In this document: positions 27,405-46,258 of the stretch, piece after piece
Position numbering within the stretch: position 1 is the first letter of the stretch
Layout of the letters: every line of letters starts with the position of its first letter
Origin: Paramagnetospirillum caucaseum
Lineage (GTDB): Bacteria; Pseudomonadota; Alphaproteobacteria; Rhodospirillales; Magnetospirillaceae
Length of the DNA: 48,842 bases
NCBI RefSeq assembly: GCF_000342045.1
Contig: NZ_AONQ01000034.1
Span: 1 to 48,842 of the forward strand
Reading direction: 5' to 3'
Translations under genes and position numbers: made by a program
The notes under the pieces: model-generated
Database searches by the model: none
The model's input: only the letters and a program-made list of their open reading frames with translations
Told to the model about the DNA's origin: nothing

Positions 27405-27514
27405 CAAGCGCGACCGCGCGTCTCGGCTCATGCCGAGAAAGCCAAGCAAAGCGCCCGGCGCCGCCGCATTTTCTGGCTGACGGCGGCAAGCCTGGCGTCA
27501 TATTGTCAGGACAC

Positions 27515-28327: not shown

Positions 28328-28436
28328 GCGGCGTGGCCGAATACGGAGCTGGCCGATATTTTGACAACCATGGCAACCTTATGGCAGCATTTGTCGGGGG
28401 ATATGGCCACCAATCAGTATGATCACGAGGGGCGGT

Positions 28437-29237
28437 ATGGGGTGGTGGAGGCGGGTGCTGCAAATTTTTCGCACGGAGGACGGTGGCGTGGCCGACCCGG
28501 CCGGCCCCGCGCCGGTGCGCCTGGAGATGGCCGCGCTGACCGATCCCGGCAAGGTCAGGCAGAACAACGAGGATTGCTGTTTCGCCGATCCCGACCTGCG
28601 GCTGGCGCTGGTTGCCGACGGCATGGGCGGCCATGAGGCCGGCGAAGTCGCCAGCCGGATGGTCGTCGACGAGATCGTGACCCGGCTGGCCACGTGCCGG
28701 TCCGACGACATCCAGGCGGCCATGGTCTCCGTTCAGGAGGCCGTGGCGAGCGCCAACGGCAAGCTGGTGGCGGAAAACGTCCGCCGCGGCGGGGACGGGG
28801 CGAAGCGGATGGGCACCACCCTGGCCGGGGCGTGGTGGCCCAGCCTGGACCGGGTGGTGGTCTTCAACGTCGGGGACAGCCGGGTCTATCGCCTGCGCGG
28901 CCAAGGCCTGACCCAGCTCAGCCAGGATCACTCGGTATACGAGGAGTGGCGGCGGGCCGGGGCGGTCGGCGCCGCCCCGCGCCGCAACATCCTGTCGCGG
29001 GCCATCGGCCCCTCGGACGAGGTTGCCGCCACCGTGACCCTGCACGATTGCGGCCAGGGGGATGTGATCATCCTGTGCTCGGACGGTTTGTGGGGCGTGG
29101 TGGAGGATGACCGCCTCGCCGAACTGGCCCGATCGGCATCGGGTGATGTCGCCGCCCTGTGCCGGCTGGCGACGGACAGCGCGCTGGCCGCCGGTGGCCC
29201 CGACAACGTCACCGTCGTCGCCGTGGCCGCCGGCTGA
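28437..29237 (+). CDS. PP2C-family Ser/Thr phosphatase
   Basis: A 266-residue PPM/PP2C phosphatase. Motifs in order: VRQNNEDCCF (metal-binding Asp), LALVADGMGGHEAGEVAS, MGTTLAGAW, VVVFNVGDSRVYRLRG, LSQDHSVYEEW, ILSRAIG, VIILCSDGLWGVVEDD and GGPDNVTVVAV. All metal ligands expected for the family are present. There is no membrane segment. The start at 28437 follows GAGGGG; an ATG at 28419 is also in frame. It ends 5 bp from the convergent kinase gene, so it very likely reverses that kinase's phosphorylations. Confidence 0.92.
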   Translation: MGWWRRVLQIFRTEDGGVADPAGPAPVRLEMAALTDPGKVRQNNEDCCFADPDLRLALVADGMGGHEAGEVASRMVVDEIVTRLATCRSDDIQAAMVSVQEAVASANGKLVAENVRRGGDGAKRMGTTLAGAWWPSLDRVVVFNVGDSRVYRLRGQGLTQLSQDHSVYEEWRRAGAVGAAPRRNILSRAIGPSDEVAATVTLHDCGQGDVIILCSDGLWGVVEDDRLAELARSASGDVAALCRLATDSALAAGGPDNVTVVAVAAG

Positions 29238-29242
29238 GGCGA

Positions 29243-30982
29243 TCAGCGGACGATACGGACCGTATACTCACCCTGACCGAAGGCGCCGGCCGCCTGATAG
29301 GCTTGCACCAGGGAGGACAGATCCGTGGTGTCGAGGGGGGCCAGATCCTTGCCGTGAAGGGCTTCGGCTACCTTGGGCGCGCTTTGGGTGGCGAAGCAGA
29401 TGAACCGCTCCTCCTGCCCGGCATTGTCCATCACCAGCTTGAACTTGCCGTTCGGGACGGCGAGGGGCTTGCCCGGCGCCGCCGCCCCGCTCGGCTGGAA
29501 GCGGTTGGGGAAGACGCGGGTGATGGTGCTCGACGCCTGCCGGTAATAGCAGGTCACCCAGGCCGGGCGGGTGACGGCGATGGAAAGCGTCAGCGGCGTG
29601 CCGGCGGGATAGGGCTTGTCGCCAAGCTGGCCGGTCACCGCAAGCACCGGGGCCGCCGCCGTGGCGGCGGGCTTGGCGGACGCCGTGGCCCCCGACGTCT
29701 TGGTCTTGACCTCGCCCAACTCCTTCTCCAGGTCGGCGTCGGCCCCCGCCACCGGGGTGGAGGCGGCCGGGGCCGGCGCGGTGGGCTTGGCGTCGCCGCC
29801 CTTGATCCGGACCTCGCCCAGTTCCTTCTCCAGGTCCATGTCCGAACCGGCCTTGGCCGGGTTGGAGGCCGGCGCCGGAGCGGGAGCCGGGGCCGGCGGC
29901 GGCTTGGGGGAGGAGGCGAGGAAATAGGCCCCCCCCGCCCCGGCCAGCGTCAGGCCGGCGACGGCAGCGGCGATCAGCGGCATGCGGCTGCCTTGCCGCT
30001 TGTGCTGGACGACGATGGTGGCGTCGTCGGTGCTCCCGATTATGGTGGCGGCCATCAGGGTTGCGTCACCGCCGCGCGTCACCACGGTGGGGTCGTCGCC
30101 GGAAACGGCGCGGCCGGCGGCCGAGGGCATGGCGAGCGGCGCGGCGACCTTGCCGGTGGCGGCCATGGCGAGGGCGTCGGCGAATTCCTTGGCGGTCTGG
30201 AAGCGCTGGTCCGGGGCGCGGGCCATGCCCCTGACGACGACGGACTCGATGGCCGGCGGAATGCCGGCGGCCAGGCGGGTCATGGGGATCGGCTCGGTGG
30301 TCAGCACCCGGTGCATGACGGCGGTCAGGTTGTCGCCGGCGAAGGCCTTTTCGCCGGTCAGGCCCTGGTACAGGATCACGGCGGCGGAATAGAGGTCGCT
30401 GCGCGCATCCACCGGTTCGCCGGTGAACTGCTCCGGCGACATGTAGCTGGGCGAACCCATCACCGTGCCGATCTGGGTCAGGGTCGAGGATTCCAGGCGG
30501 GCGATGCCGAAATCCATGATCTTGGCCTGGCCGTCCTCGGTGATCAGGATGTTGGACGGCTTGATGTCGCGGTGGACGATCCCCTGGCGATGGGCATGCC
30601 CAAGGGCGGACAGAACCTGATCCATGATGGACAGCATGGTCTCGGTGGAGAACCGCTCGCCGGCCTGAAAGTACTGGGCCAGGGTCCGCCCCTTGACCAG
30701 TTCCATGGCGATGAAGGCGCGGCCGTCATCCTCGCCGTATTCGTAGACGGCGACGATATTGGGATGCTGCAGGCGGCCGGCGGCGATGGCCTCGCGCTTG
30801 AAGCGCTCGGCCGCCTCGGCGAACTCGGCGTCGGCGCCGCCGTCGTCGTTCTTCCTGGTCTTGATGGCGACAAGACGGCCGATGACCGGGTCGCGTCCCT
30901 GATAGACGATCCCCATCGCCCCCCGGCCAAGTTCGCCGATGATCTCGTACTTGCCGATCCTGCCGCTATCAACCGTTGCCAC
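29243..30982 (-). CDS. PknB-like membrane Ser/Thr kinase with DUF4384 domain
   Basis: A 579-residue kinase from GTG 30982 (AAGGGG ribosome-binding site). Motifs: GRGAMGIVYQGRD (P-loop), VAIKTRK (Lys), IVHRDIKPSNILI (catalytic loop), KIMDFGIARLE, GSPSYMSPEQF and DLYSAAVILYQGL. After a linker comes one TM helix (PLIAAAVAGLTLAGAGGAYF), then a Pro/Ala-rich periplasmic stretch with two repeats (DMDLEKELGEV and DADLEKELGEV). A C-terminal DUF4384-like domain has YPAGTPLTLSIAVTRPAWV and RVFPNRFQPSG. It is the last gene of the cyclase-RND operon, 20 bp after the barrel gene. Its natural target could be the FHA-bearing transporter two genes upstream. Confidence 0.9.
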   Translation of the reverse strand: MATVDSGRIGKYEIIGELGRGAMGIVYQGRDPVIGRLVAIKTRKNDDGGADAEFAEAAERFKREAIAAGRLQHPNIVAVYEYGEDDGRAFIAMELVKGRTLAQYFQAGERFSTETMLSIMDQVLSALGHAHRQGIVHRDIKPSNILITEDGQAKIMDFGIARLESSTLTQIGTVMGSPSYMSPEQFTGEPVDARSDLYSAAVILYQGLTGEKAFAGDNLTAVMHRVLTTEPIPMTRLAAGIPPAIESVVVRGMARAPDQRFQTAKEFADALAMAATGKVAAPLAMPSAAGRAVSGDDPTVVTRGGDATLMAATIIGSTDDATIVVQHKRQGSRMPLIAAAVAGLTLAGAGGAYFLASSPKPPPAPAPAPAPASNPAKAGSDMDLEKELGEVRIKGGDAKPTAPAPAASTPVAGADADLEKELGEVKTKTSGATASAKPAATAAAPVLAVTGQLGDKPYPAGTPLTLSIAVTRPAWVTCYYRQASSTITRVFPNRFQPSGAAAPGKPLAVPNGKFKLVMDNAGQEERFICFATQSAPKVAEALHGKDLAPLDTTDLSSLVQAYQAAGAFGQGEYTVRIVR

Positions 30983-31002
30983 TTGCCGTATCCCCTTCCA
31001 GG

Positions 31003-32580
31003 TCAGTGGTTCAAGACGACGCCGAAACGGATGAAGTCGTTCCGCCGCCAGCGCCCGTACAGCGTGTCCGGCTCGCCTCCGAAGGCGCTCATGTCGAGCT
31101 TGAACTTGATGTCTTCCGCATACTTGTACTCGGCGCCGGCCGATGCCGAGTGGTCGCCGTCGACAAAGTTCCTGGCGCCGCCGACATAGGTGCTCCACGC
31201 ATTGGAGATGCGGAAGATCACGCGGCCCAGCACGGCGTCGCGGAGGGGCCGGGACGACGAGGAATTGGCCAGGAACTGGCCGCTGCTCGACTGCTGGTCG
31301 GTGACCAGTTCGCCGGCATATTCCAGGATCGGCTGAATCTCGTCCAGCCCCAGGCTGTTGGCCAGGGCCGAGTCGCGATAGCTGAAGCCGACCACGTGCT
31401 TGATGAAATCCTGGTCCTGGTTGTGGCTGGCGATCTGCCACGACGCCTCGCCATGGAATTCCCAGCGGTCGATGGTGGTCGAGACGCCCGCCGCCAGCGT
31501 GCTGGCCATCGGGCGGTAGATCTCGGACATGGCCGCCCCGCGCTGGCGCAGGATGGGGTAGATGGTGGGGCCGTAATGGGCCAGGCCGAAATAGTCGAAG
31601 CCGCCGGCGGTGCCCTTGTAGCGCCCCAGATAGCCCCAGTTGCGCGCCGCGCCGTCATGGTAGTTCTCGGCCAGCGACGCGCCCGCCCCCAGGGCCGGCA
31701 TGGCGGTGAAGGCATAGCTGGAGGTGCCGCCGAACCAGCGGGAATTCTTGTGCGGCACGACGCTCACGTCGTCGGTCGGCAGGACCGCCAGGGTGAACTG
31801 GTCGTCTCCCACCGCCCGGTCGTAGCGGGCCTGCCAGCGGCCGGTGCGGAACGCCTGGGTCGGGTCGGCGGCATAGCTCGGCTCGAAACGGTCGGCGGGT
31901 GAATAGAGGGTGGACACCCCCATGGACAGCGGCGCCTTGCCGATGGTGACCGTGTTGCTTCCCATCTGGTGGGCCAGGGAGAGGGTGTCGACATCCACCC
32001 ATTTGGCGCGGTTGCCATGGGCTCCGGGGGCGGTGAAGACCCCCTTGTGCTCGTTGGTCGCCGTCGATCCGACGGCGTGCATCTTGAGGTTGAACTGGGT
32101 GTCCGGGGTGAGCGACGCCCGCGTGGTGATCTGGAACTTCGACCAGCCGACCGCATGGTCGTCCACCACCTGCCGGTTGGAATAGCCCATGGGGAAATAG
32201 GTGGTGAACAGGTCGAGCTGGTATTGCGCGCGCTTCACCAACTGGGCGAAGGGGTTGTCGGCAGTCTGCGGCGCCTTGCTCTCCTTCTTGGCGGCCGGCG
32301 CCGCCGTGTCGAGGAACTCGTCGTCGGAGGTATCCAGCATGCTCTTGCCGGCGGGAGGAGCCGCCTTCTTGACCGGCTGCGCCTCCATCTGGCTTTCGAT
32401 GTCGCCGAAGCTGTCGTCGATCTTGTCCTTGGCCTGGGCGGTTCCGGCAGCCGTGACGACCATGCCCGCCAGGATCGGACCCGCCAATATCAGGGATGAG
32501 ATCCGCACGTTTTTCCTCCAATCCACACTGCGTCTTCCGCTGGCCGTCCCGGCCGCGATGATGGTCGATGTTCCGCTCAT
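31003..32580 (-). CDS. Putative outer-membrane beta-barrel protein
   Basis: A 525-residue exported protein whose start overlaps the RND gene stop (ATGA). The N-terminal signal has a long n-region (MSGTSTIIAAGTASGRRSVD), a hydrophobic core and cleavage after AQA. An acidic/Lys-rich linker with DSFGDIESQ and DTSDDEFLD follows. From about residue 115 there are regularly spaced aromatic strands (YQLDLFTTYFPMGYSNRQVV, FQITTRASLTPDTQFNL, and the C-terminal NDFIRFGVVLNH). The strand pattern fits a beta-barrel. I do not recognise a named family. Its place next to an RND transporter and a LolA-like carrier suggests the outer-membrane part of an export pathway. Confidence 0.7.
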   Translation of the reverse strand: MSGTSTIIAAGTASGRRSVDWRKNVRISSLILAGPILAGMVVTAAGTAQAKDKIDDSFGDIESQMEAQPVKKAAPPAGKSMLDTSDDEFLDTAAPAAKKESKAPQTADNPFAQLVKRAQYQLDLFTTYFPMGYSNRQVVDDHAVGWSKFQITTRASLTPDTQFNLKMHAVGSTATNEHKGVFTAPGAHGNRAKWVDVDTLSLAHQMGSNTVTIGKAPLSMGVSTLYSPADRFEPSYAADPTQAFRTGRWQARYDRAVGDDQFTLAVLPTDDVSVVPHKNSRWFGGTSSYAFTAMPALGAGASLAENYHDGAARNWGYLGRYKGTAGGFDYFGLAHYGPTIYPILRQRGAAMSEIYRPMASTLAAGVSTTIDRWEFHGEASWQIASHNQDQDFIKHVVGFSYRDSALANSLGLDEIQPILEYAGELVTDQQSSSGQFLANSSSSRPLRDAVLGRVIFRISNAWSTYVGGARNFVDGDHSASAGAEYKYAEDIKFKLDMSAFGGEPDTLYGRWRRNDFIRFGVVLNH

Positions 32581-35500
32581 GCGCCTGCCCCGAGCACCTC
32601 GTAGGCGACGGCGGTGGCCTCCGAGCCACCCTTGCGGCCGAGGCTGACCACGCCGCGGCCGGTCAGCTCGACGGTCTTCATGTGCAGGTCCCCGCTCTCG
32701 GCGAAGGTGCCGTTGGTGCTGTGGTCGCTGATGAAGAACCTCTGGTTCACGTACCGTACCGAGGCGTGGTTGCGCGACACCCGCTGCTCGCGCACGATCA
32801 GGTCGCAGGTGTCGGAACGCCCCAGCATCGCTTCCGGATTGCCGGCCCCCACATCCACCGTCTTGCCGCCGTGGGTCAGGCGCAGGCGCACCCCTTCCAC
32901 CGGCCCGCCGCCTCCGGCCCGGCGATTGCCGGCGACGCGCTCGGCGATGATCGCCGACAGGTTCTTGTGCAAGGTGGCGCGCAGCCAGGGATAGAAGCGC
33001 AGGCCGGTCCGGATGGAATCGGCGTCCATGGCGATGATCTTGCCGTCGCGGTTGGCGCGCACGGTGGCCAGGCGGGCGGTTTCGCCGACGAACCCGATCT
33101 CTCCGAACGTCTGGCCCGGCCCCAACTGGGCCAGCAGGGTCTCGCGGCCGTCGGCGTCGGTCTGCACCACGTCCACCGACCCCTTGAGGATCAGATAGAA
33201 ATTCCGGCCCATCTCTCCCTGGCGGATGATGGCGGTGCCCGCCGACACGTCCACCAGGCGCGAGGCCAGGATCGCCTTCTTGATCGACCATTTCGACATG
33301 GACTTGAACAGCGACGACTGCACCAGGGCGGTGTCGCCGACATTGAGGGCCACCACGTCCCAGACGCCGACCAGCCGGACGCCGCGCAGCAGGGCCGGCG
33401 TCATGAACAGGTCGACGAACATGGCGACGAAGATGGTGAAGGCCGACATCAGCCCGTATTGCGAGACGATGGTGAAATTGGACCCGGCCAGGATGACGAA
33501 GCCCAGCGACAGGGCCAGGGTGGTGGTGATCACCGGCACCACCTCGGAATAGAACGTCAGCTTGATCGCCTTGTCGGGGTCGGCCTCGTGGCGGCAGACG
33601 CCCAGATAGGCGGAAAAGAAGTGGATGGTGTCGTCCACGGCGATGCCCAGCGCCACCGCCGCCACCGACGCGGTTCCCGGGTTGAGCGGCAGACCGATGA
33701 GCCCCATGGTGCCGAAGCAGATGACGATCGGCACCATGTTGGGAATCATCGAGATGATTCCGGCCAGCAGCGACTGGTACAGCAGCGCCATCATGGCGAG
33801 GATCACCAGCGTCACCCACATCAGCGAGTCGGCCTGATTGTAGATCATGCCCTCGGCGGTGCGGTTGATCATCAGGTTCTTGCCGATGAAGTCAACGGCG
33901 GTGCCGTCCAGGGCCACCGAGCCCAGGCTGGCCTGGACCTTCTTGATGACCTCGTTGAAGTCGCTGGAATCCGAGATGTTGTGACGGACGATGATGTTGG
34001 TGTTGCGATAATCCGTGGTGACGTAGCGGTCCAGGTCCTGCCGCTTGAACAGCAGCAGGTACTGCTCGATCAGCTTGCGGCTGTCCGGCACGGTGTGGAA
34101 GGTCTCGGCTCCCCGATTCATCTCGCGGTGGACCAGGGCGAGGTGATCGGACAGCCCGGTCACCTTGTCGAAGACGGCGGCCTTGGTCAGCACTTTTTCC
34201 ACGGCTTCGGCCTGCCGCAGCATGGCCGGGTCGCGGAAATCCTTGTCCCCGGTGGCCCGCAGGGTGACGTAGAAGACCTGCATGCCGCTGATGTCGTCAT
34301 GCAGGCGCCTGGCGTCCTGGACCAGCGGGCTGGTGTCGTGGAAATAGGACAGCGGGTCGTTGCTGACCCGGATGCTCAGGGCGAAATACCCCATGACCAC
34401 GGTGATGACGGCGAACACCGCCAGCACCAGGCGGCGCTGGTCGCGGCCGACCATTTCCAGCCAGGCGACGAAGCGTCCGAGAATGCCGGTGGGGGCCTCC
34501 TCCATCGGCGGCAGGGAACTGGTGGTCGGGCCGATCAGGCGCAGCGCCAGCGGCATGGTCAGCACGGTGACCACGAAATTGGCGCTGAGGGCGAAGGCGG
34601 CCGAGAAGGCGAAGTCGATCATGATCGGAACGTCGTAGAGGGCATCGGACAGGAAGCCGATCACCGTGGTGGACGACGTCAGGATCAGGGCCAGGCTGAC
34701 ATGGCTGGTCATGAAGCGGATGGCGGCCATCCGGTCGACCTTCTGGCCGTTGGCCCGCTGGTTGGCGATGGCGCGCAGATAGCCCGACATCATATGGGTG
34801 TCCTCGGCCGAGCCGATGACGATGTTGAGGGCCGGCACCAGGGTGGTCAGCAGGGTCAGGGGGATGTTGGTCCAGCCCATGAAGCCCACGGTCCAGACGA
34901 TGGAGAGCCCCGCCGTGATCAGCGGGACCACGCTGGCGGTCCAGGTCCGCAGGAAGAAGAAGACCGTGCCGACCAGAATCACCGTCGACAGCGGCATGAA
35001 CAGGGTCAGGTCATAATTCATGCCCCGTTCGATTTCGATGTTCAGGCGCGGCGGGCCGATCTGGTAGATCCGCTCGAACTCGCCCTTGACGCGCCCGATG
35101 CTGTCCTCGATGCCGTCGTAGATCGTGTAGTTGGTGTCGCGGTCGATGGAGGCCCGGTTGAGGGAGATGGTGACCGCCGTGACCTTGCCGTCGTCGGACA
35201 GCAGATTGCGGCGCACCAGGGGGCTGTACAGCGCCTTGGCCAGGGAGGCCTGGGCCTCGGCCATGCCGGTGGGGACGGTATCGACCACCGGCTCGGTCTT
35301 CAGGGCGCCGTCCTCATCCTTGATGCTGAGGGCCGAGAACAGGCTGTCGACGCGCTGGATCTCCGGGTTCTTCTTGAGATCGCGGACCAGCCGGTCGAGG
35401 GCGGCCAGCTTTTCCGGGCTGAACAGGCGCTCGTCCCGGACATAGACGATGACGGTATTGTCCGAGCCGAACTCCTTGACCGAACGCGCATAATCGGCCC

Positions 35501-35675
35501 AGCCCGGATCGTGGTCCGAGATCAGCCTGTCATAGCTGGTGTCGATCTTCAGGCGGAGCGCGCCCATCACCATGAAGGTGGTCACCAACAGCAGGAAGAT
35601 GCCGGTGATCAGCGGCTGACGCGCACCGAAGGTAAATACGGCCTGAAGCCGGCCTTCCCCATTGCCTCCGGACAT
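32577..35675 (-). CDS. RND/MMPL transporter with C-terminal cyclic-nucleotide and FHA domains
   Basis: A 1,032-residue inner-membrane protein. Residues 1 to about 760 form an MMPL/SSD-type RND transporter: TM1 (PLITGIFLLLVTTFMVMGAL), a large periplasmic loop, TM clusters with VPALNIVIGSAEDTHMMSGY and VAALGIAVDDTIHFFSAYLG. Residues about 795-915 form a cyclic-nucleotide-binding domain (AGTAIIRQGEMGRNFYLILK, then the phosphate-binding FGEIGFVGETARLATV). Residues about 929-1030 form an FHA domain (MLGRSDTCDL, VSRNHASV, DHSTNGTF) with all phosphothreonine-binding hallmarks. Genes for a class III cyclase and a Ser/Thr kinase are in the same operon. The inferred role is export or inter-membrane transport of lipid or lipoprotein, gated by both signals. 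Confidence 0.9.
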   Translation of the reverse strand: MSGGNGEGRLQAVFTFGARQPLITGIFLLLVTTFMVMGALRLKIDTSYDRLISDHDPGWADYARSVKEFGSDNTVIVYVRDERLFSPEKLAALDRLVRDLKKNPEIQRVDSLFSALSIKDEDGALKTEPVVDTVPTGMAEAQASLAKALYSPLVRRNLLSDDGKVTAVTISLNRASIDRDTNYTIYDGIEDSIGRVKGEFERIYQIGPPRLNIEIERGMNYDLTLFMPLSTVILVGTVFFFLRTWTASVVPLITAGLSIVWTVGFMGWTNIPLTLLTTLVPALNIVIGSAEDTHMMSGYLRAIANQRANGQKVDRMAAIRFMTSHVSLALILTSSTTVIGFLSDALYDVPIMIDFAFSAAFALSANFVVTVLTMPLALRLIGPTTSSLPPMEEAPTGILGRFVAWLEMVGRDQRRLVLAVFAVITVVMGYFALSIRVSNDPLSYFHDTSPLVQDARRLHDDISGMQVFYVTLRATGDKDFRDPAMLRQAEAVEKVLTKAAVFDKVTGLSDHLALVHREMNRGAETFHTVPDSRKLIEQYLLLFKRQDLDRYVTTDYRNTNIIVRHNISDSSDFNEVIKKVQASLGSVALDGTAVDFIGKNLMINRTAEGMIYNQADSLMWVTLVILAMMALLYQSLLAGIISMIPNMVPIVICFGTMGLIGLPLNPGTASVAAVALGIAVDDTIHFFSAYLGVCRHEADPDKAIKLTFYSEVVPVITTTLALSLGFVILAGSNFTIVSQYGLMSAFTIFVAMFVDLFMTPALLRGVRLVGVWDVVALNVGDTALVQSSLFKSMSKWSIKKAILASRLVDVSAGTAIIRQGEMGRNFYLILKGSVDVVQTDADGRETLLAQLGPGQTFGEIGFVGETARLATVRANRDGKIIAMDADSIRTGLRFYPWLRATLHKNLSAIIAERVAGNRRAGGGGPVEGVRLRLTHGGKTVDVGAGNPEAMLGRSDTCDLIVREQRVSRNHASVRYVNQRFFISDHSTNGTFAESGDLHMKTVELTGRGVVSLGRKGGSEATAVAYEVLGAGA

Positions 35676-35728
35676 CGATTCCCCCTCTGTCCTTGGTCCC
35701 GCCCGCCCCTATGCGCCGGGTCGCAAGC

Positions 35729-36532
35729 CTATTTCACATGCCGGTTGGACGACACATACTGCGTGGTGAACACCTCCGCCGGAGCGGCGGTGGATTCGAA
35801 CGAGCGCTCGGCCACCTGCACGGCGGTGACGTGCTTCTGGTCGAGGTTCTTCATGACCGCGAGATTGGCCCGCCAGGTCTCTCCGGCGATGTTCTGCAGC
35901 TTGCTCCAGGTCTGGCGCTTGATCAGTTCGCCCTGGCGGTCGAAATAATCGATGCGGACCACGAAGAAGATATCCTTGCGGATCCACATCTTGGTGAACT
36001 TGTAGCCGGATTCCTTCTTCAGGACCTCGTCGACCGGGGTCGAGGTGACGACGAAGCAATCGGTGTTGTCGACCGTCTCATCGGGCTGGCGGTCGTAGGA
36101 GAACTTGCTGCGCGGCTCGGTGGCCAGATCCTCATAGGTGTAATCGGTGCCCATGAAGTAGTTCTTGCGCCCGCCCTTGGCGATCCGCTTCAGTTCGGCG
36201 CCCGAGGCCGGCAGATAGATCCACTGGTCGTCCTCGCGGTCGCGGTTCTGCCAGGTCAGCAGGGCGGTCCCCTTGACGCCGGCCGGCTCCTGGAAGACCA
36301 GCAGGTATCGCGACCCGGCCTCCACGTCGCGCTTGAACCTCTCGACCTCCCGCCGCTCCTTCGACTGATCGGCGTTGATCAGCGTCATGACCTGGGATTC
36401 GTATTCGTAGGGACGGTCGTGGCGACGCGACACCTCGTCGAGAATTTCGCGGCCGTTCATTTCCGCCGCGGCGGCCGGAAACACGGTGAACACGGCGGCC
36501 ACGGCCGCCAGGGCAAAGCTCCGAAACAACAT
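35729..36532 (-). CDS. LolA-like outer-membrane lipoprotein-sorting protein
   Basis: A 267-residue periplasmic protein from ATG 36532 (strong G-rich ribosome-binding site). The signal peptide is FRSFALAAVAAVFTVFPAAA, cleaved near AAA-EM. The mature part matches the LolA-like family found with MMPL transporters: GREILDEVSRRHDRPYEYES, EPAGVKGTALLTWQNRD, DDQWIYLPASGAELKRIA, NYFMGTDYTYEDL, YKFTKMWIRKD and FDRQGELIKRQTW. Such proteins have a half-barrel that holds a lipid or acyl chain. It lies 53 bp upstream of the RND gene, its expected partner. A longer upstream open frame reads through the neighbouring gene and is rejected. Confidence 0.88.
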   Translation of the reverse strand: MLFRSFALAAVAAVFTVFPAAAAEMNGREILDEVSRRHDRPYEYESQVMTLINADQSKERREVERFKRDVEAGSRYLLVFQEPAGVKGTALLTWQNRDREDDQWIYLPASGAELKRIAKGGRKNYFMGTDYTYEDLATEPRSKFSYDRQPDETVDNTDCFVVTSTPVDEVLKKESGYKFTKMWIRKDIFFVVRIDYFDRQGELIKRQTWSKLQNIAGETWRANLAVMKNLDQKHVTAVQVAERSFESTAAPAEVFTTQYVSSNRHVK

Positions 36533-36554
36533 ACCCCCCCCTCCGATCACGAAA

Positions 36555-37292
36555 TCACTGCGCAAGAGTTGATAGAAGCGCGCGCGCCTGTCTGTCGCAC
36601 ATCTTGTCGGCCATCCTGGCGGCCCGGTGGGCGTCGCTCGGCAGGTCGGCGGGAATGAGGTGGAGGCGGAGGCCGACCTTCTGGACGCCCTTGACCGGTT
36701 CGGACAGCGCCATGCTGTAATTGGCGCCGTCGACGATCTTGAGATTGTCCGGCCAATCGGCTCCGGCGCCGTCCAGGGGCACCACGGCCGCCGTCTTCTT
36801 GCCCGAGGCGATGCTGAGGAAGATGCCCTGGGTGGCCCCCTTGACGGACAGGCGCGGCTGCCGGCCCTGGATGACGCATTGGTTGCCGCCTTCCAGGACG
36901 TTGATTTCCTCGGCCGCCGGTGCCGGGGTGTCGACCGCGTTGTCGATGGGGACGCTTCGGAACGTCCCCAGCTTGCGGGTCTCCACATCCCCTCTGGCGA
37001 TCAGCCCGGACAGCGCCTGGCTGACCCTGTCCTTATCCTTGTCCTTGCCGCCGCCGCCGGGGGCGGGAGGACCGGTGAACGGCCCTTCCAGCGTGACGGA
37101 CTTGCCGGATTCGGTGACCAGGGTCACCCGCGAGCCGGCCGCCAGCTGGATGGGGGCGTCGCCGTCCAAGACCTTTCCCGTGGGCAGATCGGGGGCCGAA
37201 GACCGCACCACCACCACTTCGGCGGCCATAACCGGTTGCGTCATCAAGGCGCCGGCCAGAAGAAACAGCGAAAACCCGCGCTTCATTCTCAT
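36555..37292 (-). CDS. Secreted protein of unknown function in cyclase operon
   Basis: A 245-residue exported protein (signal FSLFLLAGALMTQPVMAA). The N-terminal mature part contains LAAGSRVTLVTESGKSVTLE, a pattern like FecR-type beta segments often seen beside CHASE2 proteins. The middle has a charged GGGGKDKDKDRVSQAL stretch, and the C-terminal half has strands (GIFLSIASGKKTAAVVPLD, VQKVGLRLHLIPADLP). Its start overlaps the cyclase stop (ATGA), so the two are translationally coupled. It may be a periplasmic partner of the CHASE2 sensor domain. I do not assign a function. Confidence 0.7.
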   Translation of the reverse strand: MRMKRGFSLFLLAGALMTQPVMAAEVVVVRSSAPDLPTGKVLDGDAPIQLAAGSRVTLVTESGKSVTLEGPFTGPPAPGGGGKDKDKDRVSQALSGLIARGDVETRKLGTFRSVPIDNAVDTPAPAAEEINVLEGGNQCVIQGRQPRLSVKGATQGIFLSIASGKKTAAVVPLDGAGADWPDNLKIVDGANYSMALSEPVKGVQKVGLRLHLIPADLPSDAHRAARMADKMCDRQARALLSTLAQ

Positions 37293-39274
37293 TTATCCTT
37301 CAGTTCGATGACGACACCCGCCTCTCCATTGCGGAGGCGGTCGAGATGGAAACGCGTAAGCGTATCATAGGGGTATTTCTCTGCCAATCCGCATAGCTCG
37401 TCCAGGACGTTCGGCGCATTGTCGGCCATGGCCCGGTAGGCGTCGCAATAGCGGCGGAACAGGTCGGTCCGGGCTTCGTCCGGCGTTACCGGCATGAAGG
37501 TTTCGATACCCTTCGTCTTACCTTTCAGGATCAGGATGGCCATGGGCCGGAAAGCGATGGAGGGCGGGCAGAGCGCCGCCGTCGCCCCGGAGATGCACAG
37601 CCGCGTGCCCAGATACTTGTTGGCGCCCTCGAGCCGCGAGGCGCTGTTCACGGTGTCGCCGTGGCCGGTGTAGTTGAAGAAGTGGCTGCCGCCGAAATTG
37701 CCCACGGTGGCCCGGCCGGAATGCACGCCGACCCGGGTGACGCCGAACTCCACTCCCTCGGCTTTCTTGCGGCGGCGAAAATCCTCGGCGAAGTCGTCGA
37801 TGGCCAGGGCCAGCCCCACCGCCATCGCCGCGTGGTCCGGCTGGGAGATCGGAGCGTTGAAGAATCCGACCACCGCATCGCCGACGATCTTGTCGATGGT
37901 CGCCTGATGGCGGCTGAACAGCTCGCACATCTTGTCCAGGTACTCGTTGACCAGGGCGACCACCACTTCCGGGGGCTCGCGCTCGGTCATGGCGGTGAAG
38001 CCGGCGACATCGGTGAACACATAGGTTATCTCGCGCACTTCGCCGCCCAGGCGGAAGCTTTGGGGCGAGCGCACGATCTCGTTGACGATGGCCGGGGCCA
38101 CGTAGCGCTGGAAAGCCGTGCGGAGGAAGGCGCCCTGCCGCTTCTCCTCGCGCCAGAGATAGCCGCTGACCGCCCCGGCCGAGGCGACGAAGGCCAGGGT
38201 CGGGGCAAGAACCGGGACGACCAGCAGGAACGCGTGGCTGAGGATGAAGGACAGCCCCCAGTAGCCGCCCAGGGCGGCCAGGGCGAGGCACAGGCGCCAG
38301 AGCAGGGCCACGTCCAGCCGGGCGAGCAAGGCTCCGGCGATGGCCACGGCCAGCAGCAGCCCGACTTTGCCCGCCAGTCCCGGATATTCCGGCGAACGGC
38401 CCGAAATCAGTTGGGTGACGGCATGGGCATGCAGCACCACCCCGGGGATGGTGCCGGCATCGGCCCCGTACAGGGCGATGGCCTGGGAACGGTGGCGGTC
38501 CTCGATGGGCAGGTCGAAGCCCACCAGGACAAGCTTGTCCGCCAGCCACGACGCCGGCATCACCGCCAGGGCGGCGGCGGGCATCACCCTCACTCCGGCG
38601 GGGCGTTCCTCGGTGAAGGGGCGCAGCATCAGCGGCACCATCTCGCGCTTTTCCGGCGCGCCGTGGGCCTGCGCCAGGGCGGCGGCCATTCCGGGAAGCC
38701 ACGCTCCGTTTTCCTCCCGGCCGGGAAAGATGGCGCGGGTGATGCCGTCGTCGCGATCGCTCGCCAGATTGGCCCAGGCCGGCCGGACGAGGCCGGTGGC
38801 GGGGAGATAGGACCGCAGATAGGCGGCCTGGTCCCTGGTCAACCGCTCCTCCTCGCTGGCATGGGCGACGAAGACGGGAACCGTCGAGGCTTTCAGGACC
38901 TGGCGCAGCCGTTCATCCTTGGCGGCTTCGGTGGGCTGGTCGAACAGGATGTCGATGGCGATCGCCCGGGGTTTGCGGTCGATGATCGTCTGCAGCACTC
39001 CGGCAAGGAAGGCCCGGTCCACCGGAGAGCGGTAGGGAAAGGCGCGCAAATCCTCTTCCCCGATGGCCACCACCACCACATCGGTGTCGGTCTGGCTCTC
39101 CGCCATGGTCAACAGGCGGATGTCGGCCGTCCAGTTCTCGGCGATCCGCGCCACCGGAACAAATGTCGTAATCGAGAGGGCTACCAGGACGACGGTGGGG
39201 ATAACCAATACATAGGCCCCCCAATATCGGATCGACTCCCCCCGCAGCACCGTTACAAATCGTCCCCACCCCAT
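37289..39274 (-). CDS. CHASE2-domain class III adenylate/guanylate cyclase
   Basis: A 661-residue membrane cyclase. An N-terminal TM (AYVLVIPTVVLVALSITTF) leads to an extracytoplasmic CHASE2 domain (about residues 45-300: DVVVVAIGEEDLRAFPYRSP, AIAIDILFDQP, KLVLVGFDLP, PGVVLHAHAVTQL). Three TM helices follow (about 300-385), then a class III catalytic domain (about 430-600) with both metal Asp (YVFTDVAGFTAM and KIVGDAVVGFFN), GVHSGRATVGNFG and GDTVNSASRLEGANKYLG. It probably makes cAMP in response to a periplasmic cue. Two cyclic-nucleotide-binding proteins are encoded nearby: the RND protein in this operon and the divergent gene at 39407. Confidence 0.92.
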   Translation of the reverse strand: MGWGRFVTVLRGESIRYWGAYVLVIPTVVLVALSITTFVPVARIAENWTADIRLLTMAESQTDTDVVVVAIGEEDLRAFPYRSPVDRAFLAGVLQTIIDRKPRAIAIDILFDQPTEAAKDERLRQVLKASTVPVFVAHASEEERLTRDQAAYLRSYLPATGLVRPAWANLASDRDDGITRAIFPGREENGAWLPGMAAALAQAHGAPEKREMVPLMLRPFTEERPAGVRVMPAAALAVMPASWLADKLVLVGFDLPIEDRHRSQAIALYGADAGTIPGVVLHAHAVTQLISGRSPEYPGLAGKVGLLLAVAIAGALLARLDVALLWRLCLALAALGGYWGLSFILSHAFLLVVPVLAPTLAFVASAGAVSGYLWREEKRQGAFLRTAFQRYVAPAIVNEIVRSPQSFRLGGEVREITYVFTDVAGFTAMTEREPPEVVVALVNEYLDKMCELFSRHQATIDKIVGDAVVGFFNAPISQPDHAAMAVGLALAIDDFAEDFRRRKKAEGVEFGVTRVGVHSGRATVGNFGGSHFFNYTGHGDTVNSASRLEGANKYLGTRLCISGATAALCPPSIAFRPMAILILKGKTKGIETFMPVTPDEARTDLFRRYCDAYRAMADNAPNVLDELCGLAEKYPYDTLTRFHLDRLRNGEAGVVIELKDK

Positions 39275-39406
39275 GACGCTTGCCTTTGGTTCAGAATGGA
39301 CTATCCTTCAACAACGTAACCGGAGCCACGGGACGTCTCAATCGTCGAATTGGTTTCAAAGTTTTTACCTCGACGGGCGGGGTGGTGCGTTATTCCCGGG
39401 GATGGC
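39275..39406. promoter_or_regulatory. Divergent intergenic region of cyclase and cNMP genes
   Basis: These 132 bp separate the cyclase operon (minus) from the cyclic-nucleotide-binding protein gene (plus) and must hold both promoters. They are more AT-rich than the flanks (TTGGTTTCAAAGTTTTTACC around 39,350). I could not identify a clear operator or unambiguous -35/-10 pair. Confidence 0.5.
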
Positions 39407-39859
39407 ATGAAAACGAGGAAAGCTGGCCCAGACGAGGTCGAACGCTCGTTCCGGGATGGTGAGCTTATTTTCCGCGAAGGCGAGCAGACGCGGGAAATGT
39501 TCATCATCCAGCAAGGCGAAGTGGCGATCATCGCGACGATCAACGGCGTCGAGAAGGAAATCGAAACCCGCCGGCGGGGCGAATTCTTCGGGGAAATGGC
39601 CCTGCTGGAAAGTCTGCCCCGCTCCGCCACGGCTGTGGCCAGGGGCGACACCCGGCTGCTGGTCATTCAGTGCGGCGGATTCCTCCAGAAGCTGCGCCGC
39701 GATCCGACCTTCGCCTTCGAGATGCTGCAACGGCTGAGTTCGCGCTTCCGGAAGGTGCATCAACAGCTGATGACCATGATGGAGGAGCGCGACCGGGAGA
39801 CCCCGGAGCGGCAATGCGCCGGCATGCTGATCGAGTTCCGCGGGGACGATGCTCCGTGA
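39407..39859 (+). CDS. Stand-alone cyclic-nucleotide-binding domain protein
   Basis: A 150-residue protein that is almost entirely one Crp-type cNMP-binding domain: DGELIFREGEQTREMFIIQQ, RRGEFFGEMALLESLPRSAT (canonical phosphate-binding cassette with FGE and RSA), LLVIQCGGFLQKLRRDP. No DNA-binding helix-turn-helix follows, only a helical tail, so it is a sensor or adaptor, unlike a Crp transcription factor. The ATG at 39407 is preferred over an upstream in-frame start because the domain begins right after it. It overlaps the phosphoesterase gene by 4 bp (GTGA), implying joint function. Confidence 0.88.
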   Translation: MKTRKAGPDEVERSFRDGELIFREGEQTREMFIIQQGEVAIIATINGVEKEIETRRRGEFFGEMALLESLPRSATAVARGDTRLLVIQCGGFLQKLRRDPTFAFEMLQRLSSRFRKVHQQLMTMMEERDRETPERQCAGMLIEFRGDDAP

Positions 39860-40638
39860 TCATCGACATAGCTGAGGAAAAGCTGGTCGTCATTTCCGAC
39901 CTTCACATCGGAAACCCCATCTATTCCTGCAAGCGCGTGCTGACCTCGTTCATCCAGCAGGCCATGGACGAAGGGTTTTCCGTCTGCCTGAACGGCGACG
40001 GCCTGGATGTCGTGCAGTCGTCCTTCCAAAAGATGGCCGGCGAGATTCCGGAAGTGTTCGGCCAGTTCCGGCAACTGCGCGACCGCGGCCTGCGCGGCTA
40101 TTACGTGATCGGCAATCACGACATCATCCTCGAACACCTGCTGGCCGACTGGGATTTCCTGATTCTGACGCCGTTCCTCAACCTGACCTCGGGGGGATAC
40201 CGCATCCGGATCGAGCACAGCCATCTCTACGACCCGGCCTTCGCCGGACACCCGCATCTCTATCACCTGCTGACCAAGATGGCCGGCTGGGTCCTGGACA
40301 ATTGGCCCGGAGCCTTCGCGCTGTGGACCGAGTTCGAGCGCCGCCGTTTCAATCCGGGCGCCGGCGAGCCGCGCCTGAGGGGCGAACCCGCAGCCATCAG
40401 CCAGGCGGCCCGCGAGATCCTGCGCCGGGGATTCGATTGGGTGATCTTCGGCCATACCCATCATGCCGGCGTGGTTTCCATGCCGGAAAGCGGCCATTAC
40501 CTCAATACCGGAAGCTGGCTGGTCCGCCCGACCTTTGCCCGCATCGTCTCCGGGAAGGTCGATCTGTGTGAGTTTCAACAGATCGGGGGCGGGAAATACT
40601 GCACAATCACTGATGCCCCGGTGATCACCGGGGGGTGA
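39856..40638 (+). CDS. LpxH-like calcineurin-type metallophosphoesterase
   Basis: A 260-residue metallophosphoesterase from GTG 39856, overlapping the preceding stop. Metal ligands are clear: VVISDLHIGN (D-x-H), LNGDGLDVV (GD), YVIGNHDIILEH (GNHD), IEHSHLYD and IFGHTHHAGVV (GHxH). The overall plan resembles UDP-2,3-diacylglucosamine pyrophosphatase (LpxH) of lipid A synthesis, but GDGLD replaces the usual GDxxE/D pattern and the substrate is uncertain. There is no signal peptide. Coupling to a cNMP-binding protein suggests allosteric or assembly control. Confidence 0.85.
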   Translation: MIIDIAEEKLVVISDLHIGNPIYSCKRVLTSFIQQAMDEGFSVCLNGDGLDVVQSSFQKMAGEIPEVFGQFRQLRDRGLRGYYVIGNHDIILEHLLADWDFLILTPFLNLTSGGYRIRIEHSHLYDPAFAGHPHLYHLLTKMAGWVLDNWPGAFALWTEFERRRFNPGAGEPRLRGEPAAISQAAREILRRGFDWVIFGHTHHAGVVSMPESGHYLNTGSWLVRPTFARIVSGKVDLCEFQQIGGGKYCTITDAPVITGG

Positions 40639-42800: not shown

Positions 42801-45110
42801 ATGCGAATTCTAGCACACCTTGTGGCGGCGTTGAGCATTCTGGCCGCTTCCGGAACGGCCTGGGCGCAGAGCGTGCAGCGCGTCCAGACGCGGATCATCG
42901 AAAGGGCGGTTTCCCGGAACCTGGATACCGTGTTCCGCCCAAAGCTGGTGATCAATTCCGGCGCCACCGGCCCGGTGACGGCCCTGGCCCTCAGCCATGA
43001 CGAACGCCACCTGGTGACCGGGGTGGGCAACAACACCTTGCGCGTCTGGGATCTTTGGGTCGGGCGCGAGATCGCCCGCCTGTCCGGGCATACGGCCCGC
43101 ATCACCAACGTGGCCATCAGCCGCGACGGCCGCCGGGCCATTTCCGTCGATGCGGACCGCTCGGTCAAGGTCTGGAATCTCGGGGCGCTGGGCGAGGTCT
43201 CCTCCCTGGGCACCCATCCCTCTCCGGTGACGGGCATGGCCCTGGCGGGCAACGACAGCGGCGTGTTCATCGCCTCGTCCGACGGCCGCATCCGGGCGAC
43301 GGCCCTGCAGGACGGCAAGGTCCAATGGGATGTTCCGGCCCATGCGCCGGGCGTGGTCAAGCTGGTGGTCGCCGCGGATGGGCGGAGGCTTGTCTCGGCC
43401 GGAGCCGACGGAGCGGTGCGGGTGTGGGACGCCGCGACGGGCAAGGCCACGGTCGAGATCGCCTGGGACTCGCCGGTTCAGTCCCTGGCCCTGTCGGCCG
43501 ACGACAAGCGGATCGCGGCGGGCAACAACCGGGGAGAGATCGCGCTCTGGTCCATGGACGGCACCAGGATGGCGACGGTCGAGAGCAAGGCCGACCGCAT
43601 CCTGTCCATCGCCTTCGTCGGGGATGGCGGCTCGCTGGTGGCCGGAGGGGCCGACGGGTCGGTGGTCCAGCTTTCCCCCGGCGGCGAGTCCCCCCGCGTT
43701 CTGGGCAAGCACGACGCTCCGGTGAGCTACATGGTGGTGAGCGCCGATTCGAGCTTCGCACTGTCGGCCTCGGAGGATGGCACCTCGCGGCTGTGGAGCC
43801 TGCGCGGCGGCACCCATCTGCTCACCTTGGTCTCCACCGAGACGGGGTGGGCGGTGATCGACGCCAAGGGGCGCTATGACGGCAACCAGCAGGCCCTGAA
43901 CGGGATCGACTGGCAGGCGGACAGCGGCGTCGCCAATATCGAGGACTTCGCCGAAACCCACTACCAGCCGGCATTGCTGCCCCGGACCCTGCAGAATGGC
44001 GAGATCGCCGCGGCGGCGGACATTCCCGCCGGCGTCAGCTTCCCGCCCTCGGTGCGCTTCCTGTCGCCGGCGTCCGCCGGCGGGGCGGAGGCCCGCAGCA
44101 TCGTGGTCGAGGTGGTGGCCGAGGACAAGGGGGGAGGGGTCAGTGAAGTCAGGCTCTATCGCAACGGCAAGCTCCTGCCCCGTGATATCGGCCAGGTCGA
44201 GCGGCAGGACGTCGACGGCCGCGCCCAGGTGAAGGCCCGCTATCAGCTCGATCTAAGCCAGGGGGGCAACGTGCTTTCCGCCACGGCCATCAACAACGAA
44301 CGGCTGGAGAGCCGGCCGCAGACCCTGACCCTGGCCGAAGGTCCGCGTCCGCCGGGGCGCCTGCACCTGCTGACCGTCGGGGTGAACCGCTACAAGGAAA
44401 CCAGGCTCAACCTGGAATACGCGCGCCCGGATGCGCGGGCGATCAGAGAGACCATGGGGGCCGAGCTCCAATCCTCCCACACCGTGGCCGAGGTGGTGAC
44501 GCTGGAGGATGAAAAGGCGACCAAGGAGAGTATCCTCGCCGCCCTGAGACAATTCCGCGCGGTGCCGTCCGACGACGTGGTCGTCGTCTACATGGCCGGC
44601 CACGGCGTCAGCGTGGGAGACGACTGGTACTTCATCAGCCACGAGACCCTCATCCCGCGCGATCAGCGGCAATTGTCGGGCCATGCCCTGTCGTCGGCCG
44701 AGCTGAAGGCCGAGATGGAGGCGCTGAGCGCCGACCGGACCCTGTTGCTCCTCGATACCTGCCACTCCGGCACGGCGGTGTCGCCGTTGAAGGATTATCG
44801 CGGCATGAAGGCGTTGCGCCTGCTGGCCCGGTCGGTGGGAACCCATGTGCTGGCCGCCACCGACCGCCAGCAATACGCCGTCGAGCTGGAGGCCCTGGGG
44901 CACGGCATCTTCACCTATACGGTGCTGTCCGCCCTGGGGGGGAATGGCGACATCAACCGCGACGGGACGGTCTCGGTGACCGAGCTGATCAATTTCGTCG
45001 AGGGTGCGGTGCCGCCGCTGTCCAAGAAGTATGCCGACTATGCCCAGTATCCCACCGGCTATTCGCGGGGCAGCGACTTCCAGGTCTCCCGGATCGTGCC
45101 GGGCAAGTAG
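42801..45110 (+). CDS. Secreted WD40-repeat caspase-family (C14) protein
   Basis: A 769-residue exported protein (signal LVAALSILAASGTAWA). About seven WD40-type repeats span residues 50-355, with signatures such as NTLRVWDLWVGREIARLSGH and GAVRVWDAATGKA. A beta-sandwich linker follows, then a caspase-like peptidase domain (about 525-765). The catalytic His is in VVVYMAGHGVSVGDDWYF and the Cys in LLLLDTCHSGTAVS. GDINRDGTVSVTELINF looks like a complete EF-hand calcium loop (D, N, D, T, S, E at the coordinating positions). The WD40 propeller probably recruits a partner and the protease cleaves after a signal, perhaps Ca2+. Confidence 0.9.
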   Translation: MRILAHLVAALSILAASGTAWAQSVQRVQTRIIERAVSRNLDTVFRPKLVINSGATGPVTALALSHDERHLVTGVGNNTLRVWDLWVGREIARLSGHTARITNVAISRDGRRAISVDADRSVKVWNLGALGEVSSLGTHPSPVTGMALAGNDSGVFIASSDGRIRATALQDGKVQWDVPAHAPGVVKLVVAADGRRLVSAGADGAVRVWDAATGKATVEIAWDSPVQSLALSADDKRIAAGNNRGEIALWSMDGTRMATVESKADRILSIAFVGDGGSLVAGGADGSVVQLSPGGESPRVLGKHDAPVSYMVVSADSSFALSASEDGTSRLWSLRGGTHLLTLVSTETGWAVIDAKGRYDGNQQALNGIDWQADSGVANIEDFAETHYQPALLPRTLQNGEIAAAADIPAGVSFPPSVRFLSPASAGGAEARSIVVEVVAEDKGGGVSEVRLYRNGKLLPRDIGQVERQDVDGRAQVKARYQLDLSQGGNVLSATAINNERLESRPQTLTLAEGPRPPGRLHLLTVGVNRYKETRLNLEYARPDARAIRETMGAELQSSHTVAEVVTLEDEKATKESILAALRQFRAVPSDDVVVVYMAGHGVSVGDDWYFISHETLIPRDQRQLSGHALSSAELKAEMEALSADRTLLLLDTCHSGTAVSPLKDYRGMKALRLLARSVGTHVLAATDRQQYAVELEALGHGIFTYTVLSALGGNGDINRDGTVSVTELINFVEGAVPPLSKKYADYAQYPTGYSRGSDFQVSRIVPGK

Positions 45111-45159: not shown

Positions 45160-45199
45160 AGCCGAAGTTCCATCGAAAGTGGGCCATGTGGAGGGGGAA

Positions 45200-46258
45200 A
45201 TGAAGCATATCAGGCAGATCGCCGTCCTGTGCGGCGCGGCAGCCCTGGGCGTTGTCGCCATGCCCGGAACCAGCGCCGCGTGCAGTTGGTTCGGCTCGTC
45301 GGGTTGGTCGTGCTCGGGCAGCGCGTCCAATTATAACGCCCAGCCGGGCGCGCCGGTCGCCGGCGCCGTCCAACGCAGCGGCACCACCACTCAGGTCTCG
45401 GCTATCGCCAATCATCTGGGCGGGGCGTTCTCGGCCAGCGGCGCCCGCCGCGTCGCCTCCCTGGGGGAGACGGGCATCGCCGGCGGCGACGCGTCCAGCC
45501 GCTATTCCCTTTGGGTGAACGGCAGCGGCGGCCGCGTGTCGAGCACGTCTCCGGCCAACGATTTCAGCGGCAACAACAAGGGTGGCGCCGTCGGCATGGA
45601 TTATGCCCCGAGCGACAACCTCCTTGTCGGCGTCGCCCTGATGGGCGAGCACATTTCCCTGAACACCAAGTTCAATCTCGGTTCCCTGAACCGGGTGGGC
45701 TATTCGGTGGTTCCCTACGTCGCCTATTCCTTCGGGCAAGGCACCTCCATCGACGTCATCACCTCGGCGACGTTCCTTGACGCCGACGTGGTCCGGGCCC
45801 AGAACGGCCGGGGCAGCTATGACGGCTATCGCCTGATGGGGGCGTTCAACGTCCACCACGGCGTGGAACTGGGCGCCTGGAGCGTCCGCGGCGATATCGG
45901 CTACATGTACTCCCGCGAGTGGCAGGGCTCCTACCGGGAGGAGGTCTCCAACGCCCATATCGGGGCGGTCGCCTCCAATCTGGGGCAAGGCAAGATCGGC
46001 GGCCGGGGCGGCTACCTGCTGGACAAGGTCGAGCTGTTCGCCCAGGCGCACTATGTCCGCGATTTCGTCGCCAAGAGGACGAGCACGGTTCAGGGCCAGC
46101 CGAACACTCCCGACGACCGGGACGAAGTCCTGGCCGGCATCGGCATGGATTGGTTCCCGACCCAGACCGAATCCATCGGCCTGGAAATCTCGCATGGCTT
46201 CTTCCGCGAGGCGGAAGCCAACACGACGATGATGATGAACGCCAAGATCAAGTTCTGA
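45200..46258 (+). CDS. Autotransporter-type beta-barrel outer-membrane protein
   Basis: A 352-residue exported protein from ATG 45200 (GGAGGGGG ribosome-binding site). The signal (IAVLCGAAALGVVAMPGTSA) is followed by a short Ser/Gly/Cys-rich passenger (ACSWFGSSGWSCSGS). A beta-domain begins near residue 110 (YSLWVNGSGGRVSS, AVGMDYAPSDNLLVGVALMG, GYSVVPYVAYSF, AGIGMDWFPTQTESIGLEIS) and ends in aromatic Phe (MNAKIKF), as outer-membrane proteins do. With almost no passenger it may be a plain porin-like barrel. It has its own promoter upstream and a strong terminator after it. Confidence 0.82.
   Translation: MKHIRQIAVLCGAAALGVVAMPGTSAACSWFGSSGWSCSGSASNYNAQPGAPVAGAVQRSGTTTQVSAIANHLGGAFSASGARRVASLGETGIAGGDASSRYSLWVNGSGGRVSSTSPANDFSGNNKGGAVGMDYAPSDNLLVGVALMGEHISLNTKFNLGSLNRVGYSVVPYVAYSFGQGTSIDVITSATFLDADVVRAQNGRGSYDGYRLMGAFNVHHGVELGAWSVRGDIGYMYSREWQGSYREEVSNAHIGAVASNLGQGKIGGRGGYLLDKVELFAQAHYVRDFVAKRTSTVQGQPNTPDDRDEVLAGIGMDWFPTQTESIGLEISHGFFREAEANTTMMMNAKIKF

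Follow-up and report, generated by a model that had tools for sequence, protein, structure and literature searches.

A conserved RND transporter with a cyclic-nucleotide-binding tail and its cyclase and kinase neighbours in Paramagnetospirillum caucaseum

A stretch of 48,842 nucleotides on a contig of Paramagnetospirillum caucaseum (NZ_AONQ01000034.1), called the window below, carries a gene cluster built around a transporter of the RND/MMPL type, hereafter the pump. The C-terminal tail of this pump holds a cyclic nucleoside monophosphate (cNMP)-binding domain and an FHA domain. Reading frames and a Pfam domain scan define the gene calls, with start codons of our choice:

28419..29237, plus strand: PP2C-type Ser/Thr phosphatase (Pfam PP2C_2, 56.3 bits against a cut-off of 24)
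29243..30982, minus strand: Ser/Thr protein kinase with a C-terminal DUF4384 domain (Pkinase 168.1 bits, DUF4384 44.5 bits)
31003..32580, minus strand: outer-membrane barrel protein of 525 residues (from predicted structure and fold search, not from Pfam)
32577..35675, minus strand: RND/MMPL transporter of 1032 residues with C-terminal cNMP_binding and FHA domains (Pfam MMPL, cNMP_binding and FHA above cut-off)
35729..36532, minus strand: LolA-like periplasmic carrier of 267 residues (Pfam LolA_like, 160.9 bits)
36555..37292, minus strand: secreted protein of a family without a name (zero Pfam match; frequent partner of CHASE2 cyclases)
37289..39274, minus strand: CHASE2 receptor fused to a class III nucleotide cyclase, 661 residues (CHASE2 87.2 bits, Guanylate_cyc 69.4 bits)
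39350..39859, plus strand: soluble cyclic-nucleotide-binding protein (Pfam cNMP_binding, 79.5 bits)
39856..40638, plus strand: calcineurin-like metallophosphoesterase, a distant LpxH relative (Pfam Metallophos, 28.7 bits)
42801..45110, plus strand: WD40-repeat protein with a C-terminal caspase domain (Pfam WD40 and Peptidase_C14 above cut-off)
45179..46258, plus strand: autotransporter-type outer-membrane barrel (Pfam Autotransporter, 79.6 bits)

Six of these genes are packed closely on the minus strand. The secreted-protein gene overlaps the cyclase gene by 4 bp and is separated from the LolA-like gene by 22 bp; a gap of 53 bp lies between the LolA-like gene and the pump, which overlaps the barrel gene by 4 bp, and 20 bp separate barrel and kinase. 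The PP2C gene converges on the kinase gene, 5 bp away, and on the plus strand the genes of the cNMP protein and the metallophosphoesterase overlap by 4 bp. Frames and Pfam domains thus bear out the layout described in an earlier note on this DNA, namely six close-packed genes, a convergent phosphatase and a divergent cNMP-phosphoesterase pair. The span it gave, 28437..39859, is too short at both ends, since the PP2C frame begins at 28419 and the phosphoesterase extends past 39859. The kinase has 579 residues counted from a GTG start, and its frame stays open further upstream. A scan for promoters and terminators gave numbers close to chance: three promoter-like sites, with 1.2 in shuffled sequence, and eight terminator-like ones, with 6.1.

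The pump has two MMPL repeats in one chain, matched by PF03176 as two stretches (78.7 bits against 20.5). It misses the cut-off of the NCBIfam HAE3 subfamily (TIGR00921, 188.4 bits against 351.9). In the tail, the cyclic-nucleotide domain scores 73.9 bits with PF00027 and the FHA domain 43.3 bits. We searched for homologues with the membrane part alone (the first 772 residues), so that neither tail domain was in the query, among 317 genomes of the order, 398 of the phylum, 385 of the class and 48 in the class of genome G457 (G and L numbers are our handles for genomes and loci). In addition to the window, the searches yielded 34 loci from 33 other genomes, 11 from the order, 19 from the phylum and 4 from the class sets, with pumps 30-65% identical to that of the window; the six matches in the class of G457 had all been found previously. 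A fragment in G429 (49% identity across 140 residues) was left out, whereas a partial pump (L107), a contig that stops past the pump (L111) and short contigs were kept and scored as misses. Gene families at the 34 loci were defined by BLAST linkage and profiles of the window proteins rather than gene by gene with Pfam, which was run on examples only (L093, L116, L112, L123, L108, L089, L110, L094 and L128).

All 35 pumps, the window's included, carry the cNMP domain, despite a query that lacked it. Residues Glu859 and Arg868 of its phosphate-binding cassette are invariant throughout, and the closest solved relatives of the pump tail by sequence are the cAMP-binding type I regulatory subunits of protein kinase A (E 1.4e-18). 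A putative cyclic-nucleotide switch is common to all relatives examined, whereas the FHA domain was seen only in the window. It could be argued that both domains are structural or localisation modules with no signalling role, and CRP-like folds without nucleotide binding exist. We hold this to be very improbable: an invariant Glu and Arg in 35 pumps go beyond what structural use demands, and the FHA domain keeps its GR, S-R-x-H and NGT motifs, which we take to mark a working domain.

A scan of genome contigs returned one Verrucomicrobia RND match at 24% identity and none closer. A plasmid collection gave four records, with a single true relative on Thalassospira marina pCSC3H3 (40% identity), annotated in the order outer membrane lipoprotein-sorting protein, MMPL family transporter, hypothetical protein. 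As its coordinates are those of the L112 stretch, it adds a name and no extra locus. The other three records were rejected as generic RND proteins at 23-26% identity. In the literature searched, which covered few subscription journals, we found no description of a cyclic-nucleotide domain fused to an RND pump. The available text of one review names such domains on MFS transporters and does not name an RND fusion (PMC10710835); by that text and by PDB matches, known transporters with this regulatory domain are channels or MFS proteins, whereas the window's is an RND pump.

A LolA-like gene was detected by profile at 29/34 loci. At 26 of them it lies on the same strand, at most 230 bp upstream of the pump, which is above chance. 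The barrel family is present at 14 of the 34 loci by its family profile, and a single-query search agrees (14/34). The predicted structure of the window barrel (mean predicted local distance difference test score, pLDDT, of 76.3) most resembles AlgE and porins, with a TM-score on the query of 0.46 at best and residues 1-106 modelled at low confidence. BLAST linkage places a pqiB-family gene at 16/34 loci; at 10 of the 34 it shares a single same-strand run with LolA, the pump and a pqiC-like gene (L090, L093, L095, L096, L100-L103, L105 and L106). In L093, the sole pqiB-family member scanned, Pfam identifies PqiA, MlaD (MCE) and ABC_trans_aux domains, as well as AsmA, of which a family member occurs in L095. 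Such runs are possibly a cyclic-nucleotide-linked MCE lipid system of other Pseudomonadota. They differ from the window, where none of the 14 proteins scanned by Pfam has an MCE domain.

At three further loci (L116-L118; Pfam on L116), the core is flanked on either side by acyltransferase genes, in the row Acetyltransf_5, LolA, RND-cNMP, barrel, PlsC-type acyltransferase, with a cupin-like gene on the opposite strand. The products of this set may synthesise and transport an acylated lipid. Together, the pqi-family, AsmA and acyltransferase neighbours indicate a lipid as the substrate. Since the cNMP domain is on all pumps and the LolA-like carrier, the barrel and pqiB genes are their neighbours, the core is probably a cyclic-nucleotide-controlled envelope lipid transporter.

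The direction of transport could be the reverse of export: the core would import hydrophobic molecules, such as long-chain alkanes or lipids, and the signals would tune uptake. The direction of MCE transport is itself not settled, which leaves room for this reading. RND pumps of such a kind are mostly exporters, and the acyltransferase genes beside three of the 34 loci also speak for an outward route. A precedent points the same way: in the available text on E. coli ApeL-ApeM-ApeN (a LolA-like, an RND and a LolB-like protein), the aryl polyene clusters encode a LolA-like protein with an RND protein, which are proposed to deliver a lipid to the outer membrane (PMC8253772). Uptake appears unlikely to us.

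As in ApeLMN, a LolA-like carrier gene adjoins the RND gene in the window. Unlike ApeLMN, the window has a barrel gene and, among its 14 proteins scanned by Pfam, neither dedicated lipid-synthesis genes nor a LolB-like domain (DUF3261); no cyclic-nucleotide or FHA domain figures in the available description of ApeLMN (PMC8253772). Another set of MMPL, LolA-like and porin or barrel parts is that of Thalassolituus oleivorans, where the MMPL-LolA protein TOL_3187 and the porin TOL_3188 are proposed to act on long-chain alkanes (PMC6304351). TOL_3187 fuses MMPL and LolA in one protein, and the available text mentions no signalling domains. For the FHA domain, the closest parallel is Rv1747-PknF of Mycobacterium tuberculosis, an exporter with FHA domains whose operon also encodes a Ser/Thr kinase that, according to the text available, modulates it positively (PMC3908365). 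In the window, likewise, a transporter with FHA and a kinase gene belong to one run. The chassis of Rv1747 is of the ABC type, whereas the window pump has an RND/MMPL chassis, no ABC domain, and in addition a cyclic-nucleotide domain and a PP2C partner. Each of these three systems has one part of the window's design.

A likely source of cyclic nucleotide recurs near the pump. At six of the 34 loci (L108, L123, L124, L090, L110 and, as a fragment, L125), a cyclase domain is encoded no more than 5 kb away, where about 0.97 such loci would be expected from the cyclase numbers per genome (Poisson P ~5e-4, a rough value because the loci are related and many contigs are short). CHASE2-type cyclases account for two of them, L108 and L123, and the same two also have the secreted protein; cyclases of other types lie near the pump in L090, L110 and L124. 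All three genomes found to contain both the CHASE2 cyclase and the pump (G000, G313 and, outside the order, G974) place them at most about 2.3 kb apart.

The cyclase also has a life of its own. At E <= 1e-70 it occurs in 64 of the 317 genomes of the order, against 11 with the pump at E <= 1e-100. Cyclase loci were retrieved from 20 of the 64: the secreted partner adjoins the CHASE2 cyclase at 19 of 20, and a homologue of the caspase region lies in the stretch at seven. The cyclase and its secreted partner form a separate module, whose history differs from that of the pump. The secreted family looks like an undescribed, frequent partner of CHASE2 cyclases; a Pfam search at E up to 1 gave four families, each matched by one of 19 members, and the predicted model is poor (pLDDT 54.9). 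Homologues of the WD40-caspase gene occur in L108, L123/L128 and L130, the last without a pump nearby, and those of the autotransporter-type barrel in L123, L142 and L143. The former is a probable, the latter a possible member of the sensor module. Genome G974 encodes a pair of CHASE2 cyclases (L123 13410-15401 and L128 3987-5600) separated by about 6 kb, with the WD40-caspase gene in the interval.

Trees separate the two histories. In a cyclase tree covering a selection of sequences only, the window cyclase groups with that of G149, from its own family (support 0.999), and the L108 cyclase with that of G314, also from its own family (1.000). The window and L108 pumps, for their part, are sisters (1.000). 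This conflict suggests that the window and L108 gained the adjacency with different cyclases. Most simply, a mobile pump unit would on more than one occasion have come to lie next to a resident cyclase module or have recruited it. These repeated meetings, few as the cases are, are the best sign of a joint function.

The kinase lies two genes downstream of the pump across short gaps. From its sequence, DUF4384 is C-terminal and past a hydrophobic segment. The kinase has HRD and DFG motifs, the phosphatase DGMGG and GDSR, and the cyclase FTDVAGFT, KIVGDAV and GDTVNSASR, all of which we take to be catalytic signatures; by motifs, these three and the FHA domain look competent. NCBIfam cut-offs are missed for Stp1 (179 bits against 230), PknB_PASTA (322.2 against 450) and the type VI secretion TagH-type FHA protein (TIGR03354, 37.5 against 120.25). 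Elsewhere, a kinase adjoins the pump at one of the 34 loci, L089, where it lies 79 bp upstream.

The cluster occupies a changeable place in the genome. In G009, of the same genus, the two genes that flank the window stretch (27466-28327 and 46599-48028 in the window, one of them presumably modE-like) enclose a different 16.8 kb. The window's 28.3-46.6 kb, compared with L150, is a variable slot between conserved flanks. We considered a recent horizontal gain. The pump has no match at E <= 1e-35 in any of 16 genomes of the genus, but G+C is even (0.653 in the left flank, 0.661 in the cluster and 0.668 in the right part) and the window has no tRNA gene; we set the idea aside and claim neither date nor vehicle.

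The locus can be read as three layers: the transporter is conserved, the sensor module borrowed, and the kinase, phosphatase and FHA domain are local. We infer a substrate, a direction, a ligand, a phosphorylation target and a joint action of the parts as follows. The CHASE2 receptor would sense a periplasmic cue, upon which the cyclase would make a cyclic nucleotide. This nucleotide would bind the cytoplasmic tail of the pump and open or close transport. A lipid or lipid-like molecule would then pass from the inner membrane to the LolA-like carrier and on to the barrel, towards the outer membrane. RND pumps are driven by the proton gradient, which would power this one as well. In a second input, the kinase would phosphorylate a target, for which the pump and the kinase are the probable candidates; the resulting phosphothreonine would be docked by the FHA tail and reset by PP2C. 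We regard this whole reading, a lipid-moving core gated by cyclic nucleotide with the cyclase module as sensor and a local kinase-FHA-PP2C input, as an evenly balanced proposition. Its direct basis lies in the gene order, the domains, the conservation of the core, the nucleotide-site residues and the recurrence of cyclases near the pump.

Several counts weigh against it. The FHA domain is on one pump of 35, the window's; the profile of the window PP2C matches none of the 34 other loci, and one kinase per 34 loci is not significant (P ~0.10). With FHA, PP2C and, except in L089, the kinase not found at these loci, the second input has support from a single genome. The cyclase counted at L125 is fragmentary and interrupted by an in-frame stop, and counting five cyclases instead of six brings P to ~0.003; at 28/34 loci, no cyclase domain was found in the fetched stretch at the sensitivity of the profile. 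Across the order, both genes occur in two of 317 genomes (G000 and G313), against ~2.2 expected if they were independent. The cyclase is mostly found without the pump, whose membrane part appears at none of the 20 cyclase loci, several of them on short contigs. The barrel is absent from 20 of 34 loci.

Alternatively, the modules would be neighbours in the variable slot that do not act as one, the cyclase, secreted, WD40-caspase and autotransporter genes being a sensor system of their own and the kinase and phosphatase having other targets. The near-constant pairing of cyclase and secreted partner without a pump fits such a view, as do the chance-level co-occurrence, the different content of the slot in G009, and the case of L130, from the same family, where the WD40-caspase gene, the cyclase and the partner stand with no pump nearby. 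It does not readily explain why all three genomes with both genes keep them within about 2.3 kb, why cyclases of other types lie near pumps, why six minus-strand genes are so tightly packed, or why the pump itself bears domains for both signals. We consider simple neighbourhood rather unlikely.

The earlier note had proposed an export route answering a periplasmic cue through cAMP and protein phosphorylation. Pump, carrier, a cNMP domain in all 34 homologues, the excess of cyclases and a barrel at 14 loci speak for it; as one conserved system it is not supported, given the solitary FHA domain, the missing PP2C and a cyclase that mostly lacks the pump. Homologues of the pump do occur with a cyclase (six of 34 within 5 kb) or a kinase (one of 34), the association on which that proposal turned. 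The LolA-like gene upstream of the pump is shared by most loci; FHA and PP2C were seen only in the window.

We put forward, tentatively and as somewhat less probable than its opposite, a widespread and unnamed family of RND lipid transporters gated directly by cyclic nucleotides, of which the window would hold a two-key version that receives its cue from a caspase-bearing sensor module. In this version the pump would read both a cyclic nucleotide and protein phosphorylation, and neighbouring genes would encode the enzymes that make each signal and the one that erases phosphorylation. To our knowledge, direct signal control of lipid traffic in the bacterial envelope, rather than control via gene expression, is poorly known. 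The presence of the cNMP domain in each family member examined would make such control testable in purified protein, and the MCE linkage in other Pseudomonadota is a lead to the substrate. If the proposal is true, the window version brings two classic signals to bear on one pump.

The gene pair of cNMP protein and phosphoesterase recurs in L108, L109 and L123. The LpxH-like label given earlier to the phosphoesterase stands as a distant relationship: its best match to nine LpxH sequences of the PDB has E 1.6e-6, and it misses the NCBIfam cut-off for LpxH itself (PRK05340, 32.7 bits against 134). Its metal-site motifs are identical in all four sequences aligned, and the substrate of the enzyme and its cNMP partner may be a precursor of a lipid or the cyclic nucleotide itself.

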